A stretch of DNA of 64,000 nt from the NCBI RefSeq assembly GCF_000023905.1, contig NC_013192.1:310001-374000 (forward strand). Reading direction: 5' to 3'. Below are positions 56,627 to 61,442 of the stretch, piece after piece. This DNA is from Leptotrichia buccalis C-1013-b (lineage in GTDB: Bacteria > Fusobacteriota > Fusobacteriia > Fusobacteriales > Leptotrichiaceae). Both the position numbers and the translations under genes were made by a program. The notes under the pieces are model-generated. The model searched no databases and was not told where the DNA came from. It saw only the letters and a list, made by a program, of their open reading frames with translations. Position 1 is the first letter of the stretch. Every line of letters starts with the position of its first letter.

Positions 56627-57502
56627 ATGACTTTTCAGGAAATTATATTAACTCTTCAAAAGTTCTGGGGAGATAAAGGGTGTATAATATCAAATCCGTA
56701 TGATATTGAAACAGGTGCGGGAACTTTTAATCCAGATACTTTTTTAATGTCGTTAGGTCCTGAGCCTTGGAATGTTGCCTATGTTGAGCCATCACGTCGT
56801 CCAAAAGATGGAAGATACGGTGAAAATCCCAACAGAGTGTACCAACATCATCAGTTTCAGGTAATTATGAAACCATCACCAGAAAATATCCAGGAACTTT
56901 ACTTAGAAAGCTTAGTTGCATTAGGAATTAATCCTAAGGAACACGATATAAGATTTGTGGAAGATAACTGGGAAAGTCCTACACTTGGAGCGTGGGGATT
57001 AGGATGGGAAGTTTGGCTGGATGGAATGGAAATTACACAGTTTACATACTTCCAGCAAGTTGGAGGACTGGAAGTTGACATTGTTCCATCTGAAATAACT
57101 TACGGACTTGAAAGAATAGCACTTTATTTGCAAAATAAGGACGATGTAAAAGATTTAGAATGGACAAAAGGCGTAAAATACGGAGAAAGAAGATTCCAGT
57201 TTGAATACGAATTATCAAAATACAGCTTTGAAGTAGCAGACGTTCCAATGCACTTCCAACTTTTTGATATGTACGAAAAAGAAGCCCAAAACTGTCTAAA
57301 CAACGACTTAGTATTCCCCGCCTACGAATACGTTCTAAAATGTTCACACACATTCAATAACCTTGACGCAAGAGGAGCAATCAGTACAACAGAAAGAATG
57401 TCCTACATTTTAAGAATCAGGGATTTGGCTAAGAAATGTGCAGAGAAATTTGTGGAGGCAAGGGAGAGATTGGGATTCCCATTGTTGAATAAAAATAATT
57501 AG
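56627..57502 (+). CDS. glyQ: Glycyl-tRNA synthetase alpha subunit
   Basis: A 291-residue class II catalytic subunit of the alpha2beta2 enzyme. [75 protein letters not shown] and [25 protein letters not shown] are all diagnostic. AAAGGATAGAG precedes ATG. The beta subunit gene is not adjacent as usual but 1.9 kb downstream, behind two inserted genes. Confidence 0.97.
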
Positions 57503-57545
57503 ACATAAAAGAGGGGGATTCTTCTTTTGAAAGGAGGACTGTGGA

Positions 57546-58829
57546 ATAAAATTATCAATAAAGAATGTTGGAAGATTAAAGGAAGCTGATGTTGAGATAA
57601 ATGGGATAACTGTTATTGCGGGAGAGAATAATACAGGAAAAAGTACCGTTGGTAAAGTTTTGTGGAGTATATTCAGCAGTTTTTATAAAATTAATGAACA
57701 AATAGCTATAGAGAAACAAGAAAGTATTGAAAAAGTAATATTTAATAGTTTTTTAGATTCTATGTATCAAGATAATATGGGATACTTAGATCCTTTTTAT
57801 AATGAAGAGAAAGAAAAAGAAAATATAAAAAAAGTATCAAAAAAAATAGTAAATACTTTTGAAAATATAAAAGATGATACAGAATTAAAATATTATTTAA
57901 TAAATACATTGAATAAGATTATTTACTCTGATGTAAATGCTTCAAATTATAAAATAGATGAAATAGTGAAAATTTTGCGAATAACAAATGATAGAATTGG
58001 AGAAATTGCAATTTTAAAGAGATTGTTAAAAGAATTTAATAATCAAATAAATAATATTTATTCAGAAGCAGAAGCAGAAATGGAGTTAATAATAAAAGAT
58101 AAATCCTTAAAAATTGTAATTGAAGATAATAAAATTAAAGATTTAAGAGAAGATATATATGTAAATACAGAAGTTTTTTATATAGATGATCCACATATTG
58201 TAGATGAATTAGAGGAAATTTCAATGGAAAAAATTAAATTTTCTCATAGAGGACAACTGATAGAAAATTTATTAAATGTGGAAAAAGAAAGTGTAATTAA
58301 TGAGTTGCTAGCTGAAGATAGGTGGGAAAAGATAAATGATAAATTAAATGATATTATTCAAGGGAAATTTACAAGAAAGAAAAATGGGCGAAGTTTTTTT
58401 TATGAGGAAAAAAACGGTTATGAAAAAATAAATGTAAAAAATTTATCAATGGGTTTAAAAGTATTCACTATTATAAAGTTACTGATTCAGAATAATTCTT
58501 TGAAAGAAAATGGAACAATAATTCTAGATGAACCTGAAATTCATTTACATCCTGAGTGGCAAATAAAATTTGCAGAATTAATTGTGTTGTTACAAAAAGA
58601 ATTTGGAATGCATATTTTACTTACAACACATAGTCCTTACTTTCTCAAAGCTATCCAAGTTTATTCAAAAAAGTATGAAATATCAGACAAATGTAAATAT
58701 TATATGAGTGAATTGGATGGAGAACAAGCAATTTTAGTTGACAAGACTAGCAAAACAGATGATTTGTTTTATAAGTTAGCTATTTCTTTTGAAAATTTGA
58801 TGAATGAGGAAGAATTGTATGAAGATTAG
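57546..58829 (+). CDS. AAA/OLD-like ATPase inserted between glyQ and glyS, probable AUA start
   Basis: A 427-residue ABC/SMC-type ATPase of the OLD-like group without a TOPRIM nuclease domain. Walker A GENNTGKST lies at residues 26-34 (57621-57647). The central part (~50-290) is helical. Signature-like NLSMGLKVFTIIKLL, Walker B TIILDEPEIHLHPEW and H-loop LLTTHSPYFLKAI follow. The first in-frame standard start codon is TTG 57660, which removes Walker A. The frame is open back to TGA 57528; AAGGAGG (57531-57537) sits 8 bp before ATA 57546, exactly where the family's 'MKLSIKN' begins (here IKLSIKNVGRLKEADVEING). So either an AUA start is used or the start codon has been lost by mutation. It is coupled to the next gene (11-base overlap). 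Confidence 0.78.
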   Translation: MKLSIKNVGRLKEADVEINGITVIAGENNTGKSTVGKVLWSIFSSFYKINEQIAIEKQESIEKVIFNSFLDSMYQDNMGYLDPFYNEEKEKENIKKVSKKIVNTFENIKDDTELKYYLINTLNKIIYSDVNASNYKIDEIVKILRITNDRIGEIAILKRLLKEFNNQINNIYSEAEAEMELIIKDKSLKIVIEDNKIKDLREDIYVNTEVFYIDDPHIVDELEEISMEKIKFSHRGQLIENLLNVEKESVINELLAEDRWEKINDKLNDIIQGKFTRKKNGRSFFYEEKNGYEKINVKNLSMGLKVFTIIKLLIQNNSLKENGTIILDEPEIHLHPEWQIKFAELIVLLQKEFGMHILLTTHSPYFLKAIQVYSKKYEISDKCKYYMSELDGEQAILVDKTSKTDDLFYKLAISFENLMNEEELYED

Positions 58830-59349
58830 TGATTTGAGAATAGAATGTAAGTCAACTTTGAAGAAAACTTCAAAGGATGATAGCAATAATTATATGACGA
58901 ATTCTGATTTGCAGGTAATTGATTTTGATTGTTTAAAAGATAAATATATAGGGAAGATCGAATTTAATGGATTAGGTGTTAAATCAAATGATGCTTTGTT
59001 TATCAAAGGTAAAAATTATGTTTTTATTGAATTTAAAAACGGAGAAATGAAAAATATTAAAGAATTTGAACTTCATAAGAAGATATATGACAGTGTACTT
59101 ATATTTTGTGATATTTTTGATAAAACGTTGAAAGATACTAGAAAAGAATTGGATTATATTTTAGTTGCTAATTTTTCAAATTCTGAAAGAAATGATAAAA
59201 AATTGTTAGATAACTTGTTAAAAACTGTAAAAATTGAGGAAAGGCTGAGAGCTGGGCTAAGAAATTTTAAAGATTATTGCTTCAAAAATGTACACACTTA
59301 CTCAAAAGAAGAATTTGAGGAAAAATTTGTAAAAAAGATGGAAAATTAA
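58819..59349 (+). CDS. Small partner protein of the ATPase, PD-(D/E)XK-like pattern
   Basis: A 176-residue protein I cannot assign to a named family. SNDALFIKGKNYVFIEFKNGEMK contains Asp, then a beta strand, then E-x-K, the spacing of PD-(D/E)XK nuclease folds. A helix with Lys/His (EFELHKKIYDSVLIFCDIF) and a strand (DYILVANFS) follow as in that fold. ATG 58819 lies within the ATPase gene's end and is preceded by GAGGAAGA, so the pair is co-translated. ATPase plus nuclease pairs are common in anti-phage defence; that function is inferred here. Confidence 0.7.
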   Translation: MKISDLRIECKSTLKKTSKDDSNNYMTNSDLQVIDFDCLKDKYIGKIEFNGLGVKSNDALFIKGKNYVFIEFKNGEMKNIKEFELHKKIYDSVLIFCDIFDKTLKDTRKELDYILVANFSNSERNDKKLLDNLLKTVKIEERLRAGLRNFKDYCFKNVHTYSKEEFEEKFVKKMEN

Positions 59350-59405: not shown

Positions 59406-61442
59406 ATGAATTTTCTTTTTGAAATAGGATTGGAAGAATTGCCTGCACAATATGTGGATAAGGCGGAAAAAGATCTGAAAAAAATAATAGAAAATGAATT
59501 AAAGGCTGAAAGAATCAAGTTTTCAGGGATTGAATCGTTTAGTACGCCTAGAAGGGTTACTGCGATTATAAAGGATTTGGCTGAAAAACAGGATGATTTA
59601 GATAAAAAAAGCGTAGGGCCTTCGGTTGAGATTGCTTATAAGGATGGGCAACTTACGAAAGCTGGAGAAGGATTTGTAAAGTCTCAAGGTGCTACAGCTG
59701 ATGATATAAAGATTATTGAAAATGAAAAAGGGAAATATATTTCGATTGAAAAATTTATTGCAGGAAAAAATACTAGGGAAATTTTGCCTGAAATATTGAA
59801 AAATGCGATAAAGAAAATAGAGTTTGAAAAGTCAATGAAATGGGCGGACAGAACATTTAGATTTGTAAGACCGATTAAATGGTTTGTAACTTTGTTTGAT
59901 AATGGAGAAATTTTACCTTTTGAGTTTGAAGGGCTAAAAGGCGGGAATAAGACTCGTGGAATGAGATATTTTGCTTCTCAGGACATTGAGATTAATAATC
60001 CGCTTGACTATGAAAAAATATTGCTTGAAAATTTTGTTATCGTAGATGGTGAAAAAAGAAGAGAAGAAATTTTGAAAAGCATAAGGGAAAATGGGGAAAA
60101 TGATGGAGATACTGCGATAATCAATAAATATTTATTGGATGAAGTAGTTAATGTAGTAGAATATCCTTATGCAATAAAAGGTGAATTTAGCAAGGATTAT
60201 TTAGAGCTTCCTGAAGATATTATCACGATTACATTGGAAACTCACCAAAGATATTTTCCAGTAAAAGATAAGGACGGTAAATTATCAAATAAATTTATTG
60301 TTATAAGAAATGCACCTGAATATTCGGAAACTGTGAAAAAAGGGAATGAAAAGGTTGTAGAGCCAAGGCTTGCTGATGCGAAATTCTTCTTTGACGAGGA
60401 TTTGAAAAATAAATTTGCAGATAATGTGGAAAAACTGAAGGAAGTTACTTTCCAAAAGGATATGGGAACAATTTTTGAAAAAGTTAAAAGAAGTGAGAAA
60501 ATCGCTGAATATCTGATTTCAGAGTTAAATTTGACTGATAAGAAGGAAAATATTATAAGAACAGTAGATTTGGCAAAAGCCGATCTTGTTTCAAATGTAA
60601 TTGGAGAAAAGGAATTTACAAAATTACAAGGGTTTATGGGTTCAGTTTATGCTGAAAAGCAGGGAGAAGATAAAGATGTGGCGCTTGGAATTTTTGAACA
60701 TTACTTGCCTCGTTATCAAGGAGATGAACTACCTACAACTGTGGAAGGTGCCATTGCTGGAATAGCTGACAAAATGGATACAATAATCGGATGTTTTTCA
60801 GTTGGATTAAAACCGACAAGCTCTAAAGACCCTTACGCATTAAGACGTGCGACACAAGGAATTATCCAAGTTGTATTAAATTCAAAATTATCTTTTAACT
60901 ACAAAAAATTAATTGAAAAGGCTTATGAAATTTTTTCGGCTGATAAAAAAGTGCTAGAAAAAGATGTTGTGAAGGATGTAACAGAGTTTTTTAAGCAAAG
61001 AATAATTAACGTACTTTCTGAAAAATATAAAAAAGATCTTATAAACTATGAGATAAATCTTGAAAGCAATGTTGTGGAACTTGATAAAAAATTATCTGAA
61101 CTTCTGAAATTATCACAAACTGAAAACTTTGAAATTTTGATAAATCTTTTAAAACGTGTAAAAAATATTGTAAAAGATGAAAAAAATATAACTACAGATG
61201 TTATCTTTGAATTATTTGAATCAAAAGAAGAAAAAGCACTGCTTGATTTTGCAAACAAATTGGAAAGTATGGAAAATAATGAGTTTTCTAACTATATTGA
61301 AGAATTATTGAATAATGCTGATACAATAAATCAGTTTTTTGATAATGTAATTATTAATGTGGATAATGGAAAGCTAAGAACTAACAGAATAGCATTATTG
61401 AAAAAATTAGAACTTTCAATTGATAAAATGATAAATATATAA
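59406..61442 (+). CDS. glyS: Glycyl-tRNA synthetase beta subunit
   Basis: A 678-residue beta subunit that binds and recognises tRNA-Gly. NFLFEIGLEELPAQYVDKAEKDL, ETHQRYFPVKDKDGKLSNKFIVIRN, EPRLADAKFFFDEDLKNKF and ITGxADKMDTI-like GIADKMDTIIGCFSVGLKPTSSKDPYALRRAT are diagnostic, and the C-terminal DALR-like helical domain is present. AAAGGAG precedes ATG. It should be made together with glyQ; here transcription must cross the two inserted genes or start anew. Confidence 0.96.
   Translation: MNFLFEIGLEELPAQYVDKAEKDLKKIIENELKAERIKFSGIESFSTPRRVTAIIKDLAEKQDDLDKKSVGPSVEIAYKDGQLTKAGEGFVKSQGATADDIKIIENEKGKYISIEKFIAGKNTREILPEILKNAIKKIEFEKSMKWADRTFRFVRPIKWFVTLFDNGEILPFEFEGLKGGNKTRGMRYFASQDIEINNPLDYEKILLENFVIVDGEKRREEILKSIRENGENDGDTAIINKYLLDEVVNVVEYPYAIKGEFSKDYLELPEDIITITLETHQRYFPVKDKDGKLSNKFIVIRNAPEYSETVKKGNEKVVEPRLADAKFFFDEDLKNKFADNVEKLKEVTFQKDMGTIFEKVKRSEKIAEYLISELNLTDKKENIIRTVDLAKADLVSNVIGEKEFTKLQGFMGSVYAEKQGEDKDVALGIFEHYLPRYQGDELPTTVEGAIAGIADKMDTIIGCFSVGLKPTSSKDPYALRRATQGIIQVVLNSKLSFNYKKLIEKAYEIFSADKKVLEKDVVKDVTEFFKQRIINVLSEKYKKDLINYEINLESNVVELDKKLSELLKLSQTENFEILINLLKRVKNIVKDEKNITTDVIFELFESKEEKALLDFANKLESMENNEFSNYIEELLNNADTINQFFDNVIINVDNGKLRTNRIALLKKLELSIDKMINI

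Follow-up and report, generated by a model that had tools for sequence, protein, structure and literature searches.

A pair of genes for an ABC/OLD-type ATPase and a small PD-(D/E)XK-like protein lies between glyQ and glyS in Leptotrichia buccalis C-1013-b, and judged by its architecture, it very probably belongs to the WonAB-type anti-phage systems. The whole stretch of DNA analyzed, called the window, is 64,000 nucleotides long and corresponds to positions 310001-374000 of the 2.47-Mb single-contig genome. The anatomy of the locus, the conserved motifs, the near-strict co-occurrence of the two genes, the glyQ-glyS hotspot, the transfer between lineages and the swap of an ATPase insert were computed directly. 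The model as a whole, in which an ATPase sensor with an exchangeable insert and a PD-(D/E)XK nuclease form a defence pair carried as a cassette at this hotspot, is considered highly likely.

An earlier note on this DNA reported an OLD-like ATPase gene and a coupled small gene between glyQ and glyS. Both are present there, taking up the 1.9 kb that separates glyQ from glyS, and all genes are on the same strand. The Walker A, Walker B and H-loop motifs noticed in the ATPase were located, and an ABC signature was found as well. The features are listed below; G071 and G079 are Leptotrichia genomes with homologous pairs.

56627..57502, + strand: glyQ, for the alpha subunit of glycyl-tRNA synthetase; borders the exchange site on the left.
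57529..57545, + strand: Shine-Dalgarno sequence (AAGGAGG) and spacer of the ATPase gene, from the sequence; the spacing to ATG is equal in G071 and G079.
57546..58829, + strand: ABC/OLD-type ATPase (proposed sensor/regulator), 427 aa, ATA start; supported by AAA_21, AAA_15, PADLOC and PDB matches and an AF2 model.
57546..57548, + strand: non-standard start codon ATA; ATG in the homologues of G071 and G079.
57621..57647, + strand: Walker A GENNTGKST (K32; residues 26-34); G26, N28, G31, K32, S33 and T34 are invariant.
57681..58040, + strand: first helical insert of the ATPase, residues 46-165; it is hypervariable and proposed as the sensor region, from the identity profile, the AF2 model and the swap.
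58443..58460, + strand: ABC signature LSMGLK (residues 300-305); S301, G303 and K305 are invariant.
58521..58538, + strand: Walker B ILDEPE (residues 326-331), from the translation and the family alignment.
58626..58643, + strand: H-loop THSPYF (residues 361-366), from the translation and the family alignment.
58819..59349, + strand: 176-aa PD-(D/E)XK-like nuclease, proposed as the effector, from the conserved motif and an AF2 model.
58990..59037, + strand: catalytic-type motif D(58)-x12-E(71)-F-K(73), followed by N-G; D58, E71, F72, K73, N74 and G75 are invariant in 22 sequences.
59406..61442, + strand: glyS, for the beta subunit of glycyl-tRNA synthetase; borders the exchange site on the right.

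The ATPase gene and the small gene overlap by 11 nt (58819-58829), and the genome contains one copy of the pair. A promoter scan found 19 promoter-like sites against 18.9 expected, which is the chance level, and a terminator scan found none on the + strand between glyQ and glyS. As no promoter or terminator signal exceeds chance, the pair is likely to be co-transcribed with glyQS.

In Pfam, the ATPase matched AAA_21 (4.7e-22) and AAA_15 (5.3e-17). The best PADLOC match was PD-T4-4_A (2.5e-27), followed by NsnB, HEC-02A and AriA, and defence ATPase profiles were matched by all 20 of the ATPase relatives. The AF2 model (pLDDT 86) matched PDB structures of PtuA (Septu, retron), Rad50 and SMC heads with E-values of about 1e-8 to 1e-7, the best being 1.9e-8. 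The conservation is uneven along the protein. Mean pairwise identity is 0.61 for residues 1-45 and 0.64 for residues 291-375, which make up the conserved core, against 0.18 for the helical insert (46-165) and 0.25 for residues 216-290.

The small protein, which the earlier note could not assign to a named family, showed no family match in Pfam, NCBIfam or PADLOC. Comparison with PDB sequences gave a single chance-level match (E = 1), and single-sequence scans of the genome and viral collections found nothing. Relatives were recovered only with an alignment-based query. They come from Firmicutes, Fibrobacter, Treponema, Desulfovibrio and others, from several phyla. Residues S18, D20, D37, D58, E71, F72, K73, N74, G75 and K88 are invariant in 22 of these relatives. 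The D...E-x-K pattern, now specified as D58 and E71-F-K73, is not a product of chance, because it is invariant across 22 relatives of several phyla. G071, taken to be Leptotrichia sp. oral taxon 879 F0557, encodes a relative of 200 residues.

In the AF2 model of the small protein (pLDDT 85.5), D58 and E71/K73 are placed on or beside adjacent strands, as in PD-(D/E)XK enzymes. The best PDB match of this model has an E-value of 0.057 and none is below 0.001; the list consists mostly of PD-(D/E)XK nucleases. These non-significant neighbours include the La Crosse cap-snatching endonuclease, Can2, HamA, N.BspD6I, Hjc and Avs3/Avs4. Structure prediction, proposed earlier as a check of the nuclease fold, pointed mostly to PD-(D/E)XK neighbours, so that the refuting outcome of no nuclease fold did not arise, albeit with a match below significance. 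Taking the motif and the predicted fold together, a PD-(D/E)XK nuclease is a very probable identity for the small protein.

The two genes are nearly always found together. At 24 of the 26 related loci from genomes and viral contigs, the ATPase gene is directly upstream of the small gene, mostly overlapping it. The ATPase is cut by the contig end at L074 and L092, and there is no ATPase match at L090 and L095, the latter of which starts at its contig end; the matches L082 and L083 in this set are identical. The ATPase gene is also present in three relatives at the level of Fusobacteriaceae (L111-L113).

The combination of an OLD-like ATPase with a PD-(D/E)XK-like partner is supported, and in view of the distribution described below, it is in all likelihood a defence module rather than a housekeeping set of glyQS. 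The suggestion that the module is undescribed was not supported. Its architecture is the one described as "OLD-ABC ATPase + novel REase" and as WonAB (PMC12137116), a likeness of architecture and motif. This architecture is known from an in silico description and from tests in Vibrio cholerae, whose WASA-1 prophage carries WonAB (PMC12137116). WonAB is necessary and sufficient for phage protection; neither gene can be dispensed with, nor can the motif residues of the ATPase or K71 of the nuclease, and infected cells stop growing without phage release (PMC12137116). In WonAB as in the window pair, two genes form an operon, in which the ABC/OLD-type ATPase comes first and the small PD-(D/E)xK nuclease second. 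By motif, K34, E300 and H333 of WonA and K71 of WonB correspond to K32, E329, H362 and K73 in the window. The distance from the Walker A lysine to the Walker B glutamate is 297 residues in the window ATPase and 266 in WonA, and the insert of the window ATPase is judged to be longer from this motif spacing. The location also differs: WonAB is in a prophage, whereas the window pair is in a chromosomal exchange site inside glyQS. The operons of OLD-ABC ATPase + Novel REase, with a model pair from Anaerovibrio lipolyticus, SHI83489.1 and SHI83462.1 (Krishnan et al. 2020, as cited in PMC12137116), have the same organization. They may be identical with the present family; a relative of the small protein with 44% identity is found in the congeneric Anaerovibrio sp. 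JC8 (L079).

Several systems resemble the pair in the ATPase. HEC-02A, of the PADLOC candidate HEC-02, is matched by 20 of 20 ATPases, while HEC-02B is matched by 3 of 22 small proteins (best 8.4e-7) and not by that of the window. No paper naming HEC-02 together with PADLOC was found in the literature searched. Vassallo et al. in 2022 reportedly described PD-T4-4 as a two-gene system of ATPase and nuclease, an organization shared by the window pair, whose ATPase has PD-T4-4_A as its best PADLOC match. Identity with PD-T4-4 is rejected, as none of the 22 small-protein members matches PD-T4-4_B. Septu (PtuAB) shares the ATPase head fold, but its partner PtuB is an HNH nuclease; the window partner shows the D-E-x-K pattern instead and does not match HNH, and Septu is also rejected. 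OLD, Gabija and PARIS are rejected since neither window protein has a TOPRIM match. The module is thus of a kind already known (WonAB; OLD-ABC ATPase + Novel REase) and related to PD-T4-4.

The region between glyQ and glyS is a defence hotspot in Leptotrichia. Among 13 Leptotrichia genomes, the pair occupies this site in seven (G000, G068, G071, G072, G076, G077 and G079), the site is empty in five and one contains other cargo. glyQ is present in 33 of 33 genomes of the family, in one of them only as a 33-residue fragment at a contig edge, and it is 98-100% identical in the nearest relatives. In another genus, G065 likewise has the pair between glyQ and glyS, so that all eight Leptotrichiaceae copies (8/8) are at this position; nearly all other family members outside Leptotrichia are without it. 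At the empty sites, glyQ and glyS are about 140 bp apart in four genomes (G070, G073, G075, G078) and about 20 bp apart in the fifth, G074. The other cargo, in G069 (L033:3303-6465), consists of an Eco57I-type methylase, a GmrSD_N/DUF262 protein that matches the NsnA and PD-T4-2_A profiles, and a HEPN_MAE_28990 protein. Hence the splitting of glyQS is real in the window but affects only a part of the genus, and the "stable home" proposed earlier is stable in position within the lineage while its content has turned over.

Neither a target-site duplication, which was looked for, nor an integrase was found at the glyQ-glyS insert. Homologous recombination in the glyQ and glyS flanks would be the simplest carrier of the cassette. 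Some empty alleles may be losses of the pair. Over about 30 nt, these alleles are similar to the small gene at its 3' end; against G000, 0 of 300 shuffles reached the score, and against two others 15 of 300 and 21 of 300 did. Core defence hotspots, such as those of Pseudomonas aeruginosa, likewise have a fixed position among conserved genes and alternative defence content (PMC10250203). The glyQ-glyS site differs from these in that it splits an operon, separating the genes for the two subunits of a single essential enzyme, and in containing a single module and no integrase. It shows that defence genes can be exchanged within an essential operon even where there is no integrase, a location that defence-island searches would overlook.

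Some details of this site are added here. The methylase in G069 seems to continue its C-terminal part in another frame, and the cassette resembles PD-T4-2 plus a methylase. The glyS of G069 (L029) matches residues 1-648 of 678 only, with one TAA, and its C-terminal end seems altered. Another genus of the family is represented by G085, in which glyQ is followed by three genes with no Pfam or PADLOC match (L100:2611-5092), where the contig ends, and by G084, whose 675-bp spacer contains no long frame.

The comparison of alleles revealed both transfer and internal exchange. Between G071 and G076, the pair is 96-97% identical in DNA over most of its length, while glyQ is 84% and glyS 79% identical. 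The pair is far more alike than its flanking genes, indicating that it crossed lineages. The two species G071 and G079 have nuclease genes of 98% DNA identity; their ATPase genes are about 96% identical at either end, against about 53% in the middle. The alignment of these alleles indicates that the middle region is exchanged as a block. The insert is the proposed sensor, a role suggested by its hypervariability and by its exchange between alleles. The hotspot and this block exchange look new, as no description of the glyQ-glyS exchange site or of the natural insert swap there was found in the papers searched. The Leptotrichia alleles, with nearly the same nuclease and ATPase ends and wholly different middles, constitute a natural experiment on the trigger of a WonAB-type sensor, and a comparison of their phage ranges would reveal directly if sensing is governed by the insert.

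The right border of G079 follows the G076 type as far as the start of glyS, the TTG start codon included. This TTG start with a different ribosome-binding site is seen in G069, G072, G074, G076, G079 and G065, and ATG elsewhere. The glyS start differs where the cargo or the clade differs, and the exchanged tract seems to reach into it.

The start of the window ATPase gene is unusual. Ahead of the Walker A motif, the frame contains no ATG, GTG or TTG; a standard start codon appears in frame for the first time at 57660 (TTG), and its use would remove Walker A. Because of the non-standard codon, automatic annotation would probably begin at this TTG, past Walker A, and hide the system. G071 and G079 have ATG in place of ATA behind the identical AAGGAGG sequence. 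The window ATPase may be weakly expressed from ATA, or the system may be inactive here. It is possible, though rather doubtful, that the window copy is a decaying remnant, in which ATA has ended the translation of the ATPase and the pair is on its way out. The replacement of the homologues' ATG fits such decay, and the 30-nt resemblance in empty alleles suggests that losses occur. However, both frames are otherwise open across 1.8 kb, every catalytic motif is intact in both proteins, and the Shine-Dalgarno sequence and its spacing are preserved. Decay would concern the window copy alone and would not conflict with a defence role of the family. When WonA loses its ATPase activity, WonB is removed rather than released (PMC12137116). 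By analogy, the likelier effect of a lesion in the window ATPase is that the system falls silent, not that a toxin is freed.

The mechanism proposed for the defence pair is drawn by analogy with WonAB (PMC12137116), as are the nuclease activation and the abortive outcome; the defence function itself is likewise inferred. The ATPase would form an ATP-dependent ABC dimer, in which the hypervariable helical insert senses a phage-related trigger. It would hold and stabilize the small nuclease, bound to its C-terminal part, and then activate it. The nuclease would then end the infection, and the cell would probably cease to grow (abortive infection). The pair moves among Leptotrichia species as a glyQ-glyS cassette, for which homologous recombination in the genes on either side is the simplest route, and the proposed sensor insert can be exchanged separately from the rest. 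A toxin-antitoxin or addiction cassette, in which the ATPase restrains a nuclease toxin and phage defence is incidental, is improbable. ATPase-controlled effectors can act in this way (AriA of PARIS is named an antitoxin in PDB), and the pair is mobile with overlapping genes, but the removal of WonB upon loss of WonA activity is opposite to the release of a toxin. The empty site in five close relatives is consistent with a dispensable pair, and the hypervariable insert fits sensing better than plain neutralization.

It is very unlikely that the placement itself is functional, that is, that the ATPase senses phage attack on tRNA charging or translation (e.g., loss of tRNA or glycyl-tRNA synthetase) and that the position within or beside synthetase and tRNA genes ties expression to the guarded target. 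A housekeeping or regulatory gene set tied to glycyl-tRNA synthetase or translation can hardly be maintained: all Leptotrichiaceae copies are between glyQ and glyS and two more are beside synthetase genes (L078 and L089), but the pair is absent from 6 of 13 genus genomes and nearly all other family members, it is elsewhere on plasmids, an ICE-like element and prophages and also beside unrelated genes, and an unrelated defence cassette occupies the same site in G069. The conservation with glyQS in all relatives that had been named as the sign of a housekeeping set is contradicted by the five empty genomes, the other cargo and the transfer between lineages.

Outside Leptotrichiaceae, the pair is hosted by an ICE-like element, prophages and chromosomes, and distant versions are on plasmids. 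An element deposited as "Bacteriophage sp." (MT835532) carries a pair with 34.5% ATPase identity; its relaxase-, VirD4- and conjugation-type genes, read from translations, make it ICE-like. The contigs L097 and L098 are prophages with the pair. On the Klebsiella plasmid NZ_CP103616 and the Acinetobacter plasmid NZ_CP113936, the ATPase is accompanied by a distant small protein that shares the motif and matches the small-protein family with a profile-profile probability of 96.4%. The neighbourhoods are mixed. The survey suggested earlier yielded some defence and mobile neighbours (type I restriction-modification, AbiEii, AbiLi, mobilization and phage genes) and also many housekeeping genes. A defence-rich neighbourhood is not general for the pair, and the survey is not used as main evidence.

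Three Lachnospiraceae genomes (L077, L080 and L093) have the pair just downstream of a tRNA-Tyr/tRNA-Leu cluster, which is a second recurrent insertion site. At L078 and L089, it is beside apparent aspartyl- or asparaginyl-tRNA synthetase genes, with a thiI-like gene upstream at L089. Together with glyQS, these make three synthetase contexts, an apparent excess that was spotted post hoc and is not counted. In an uncultured Treponema (L088), the pair is between an apparent type I specificity subunit gene and another AAA-type ATPase gene.
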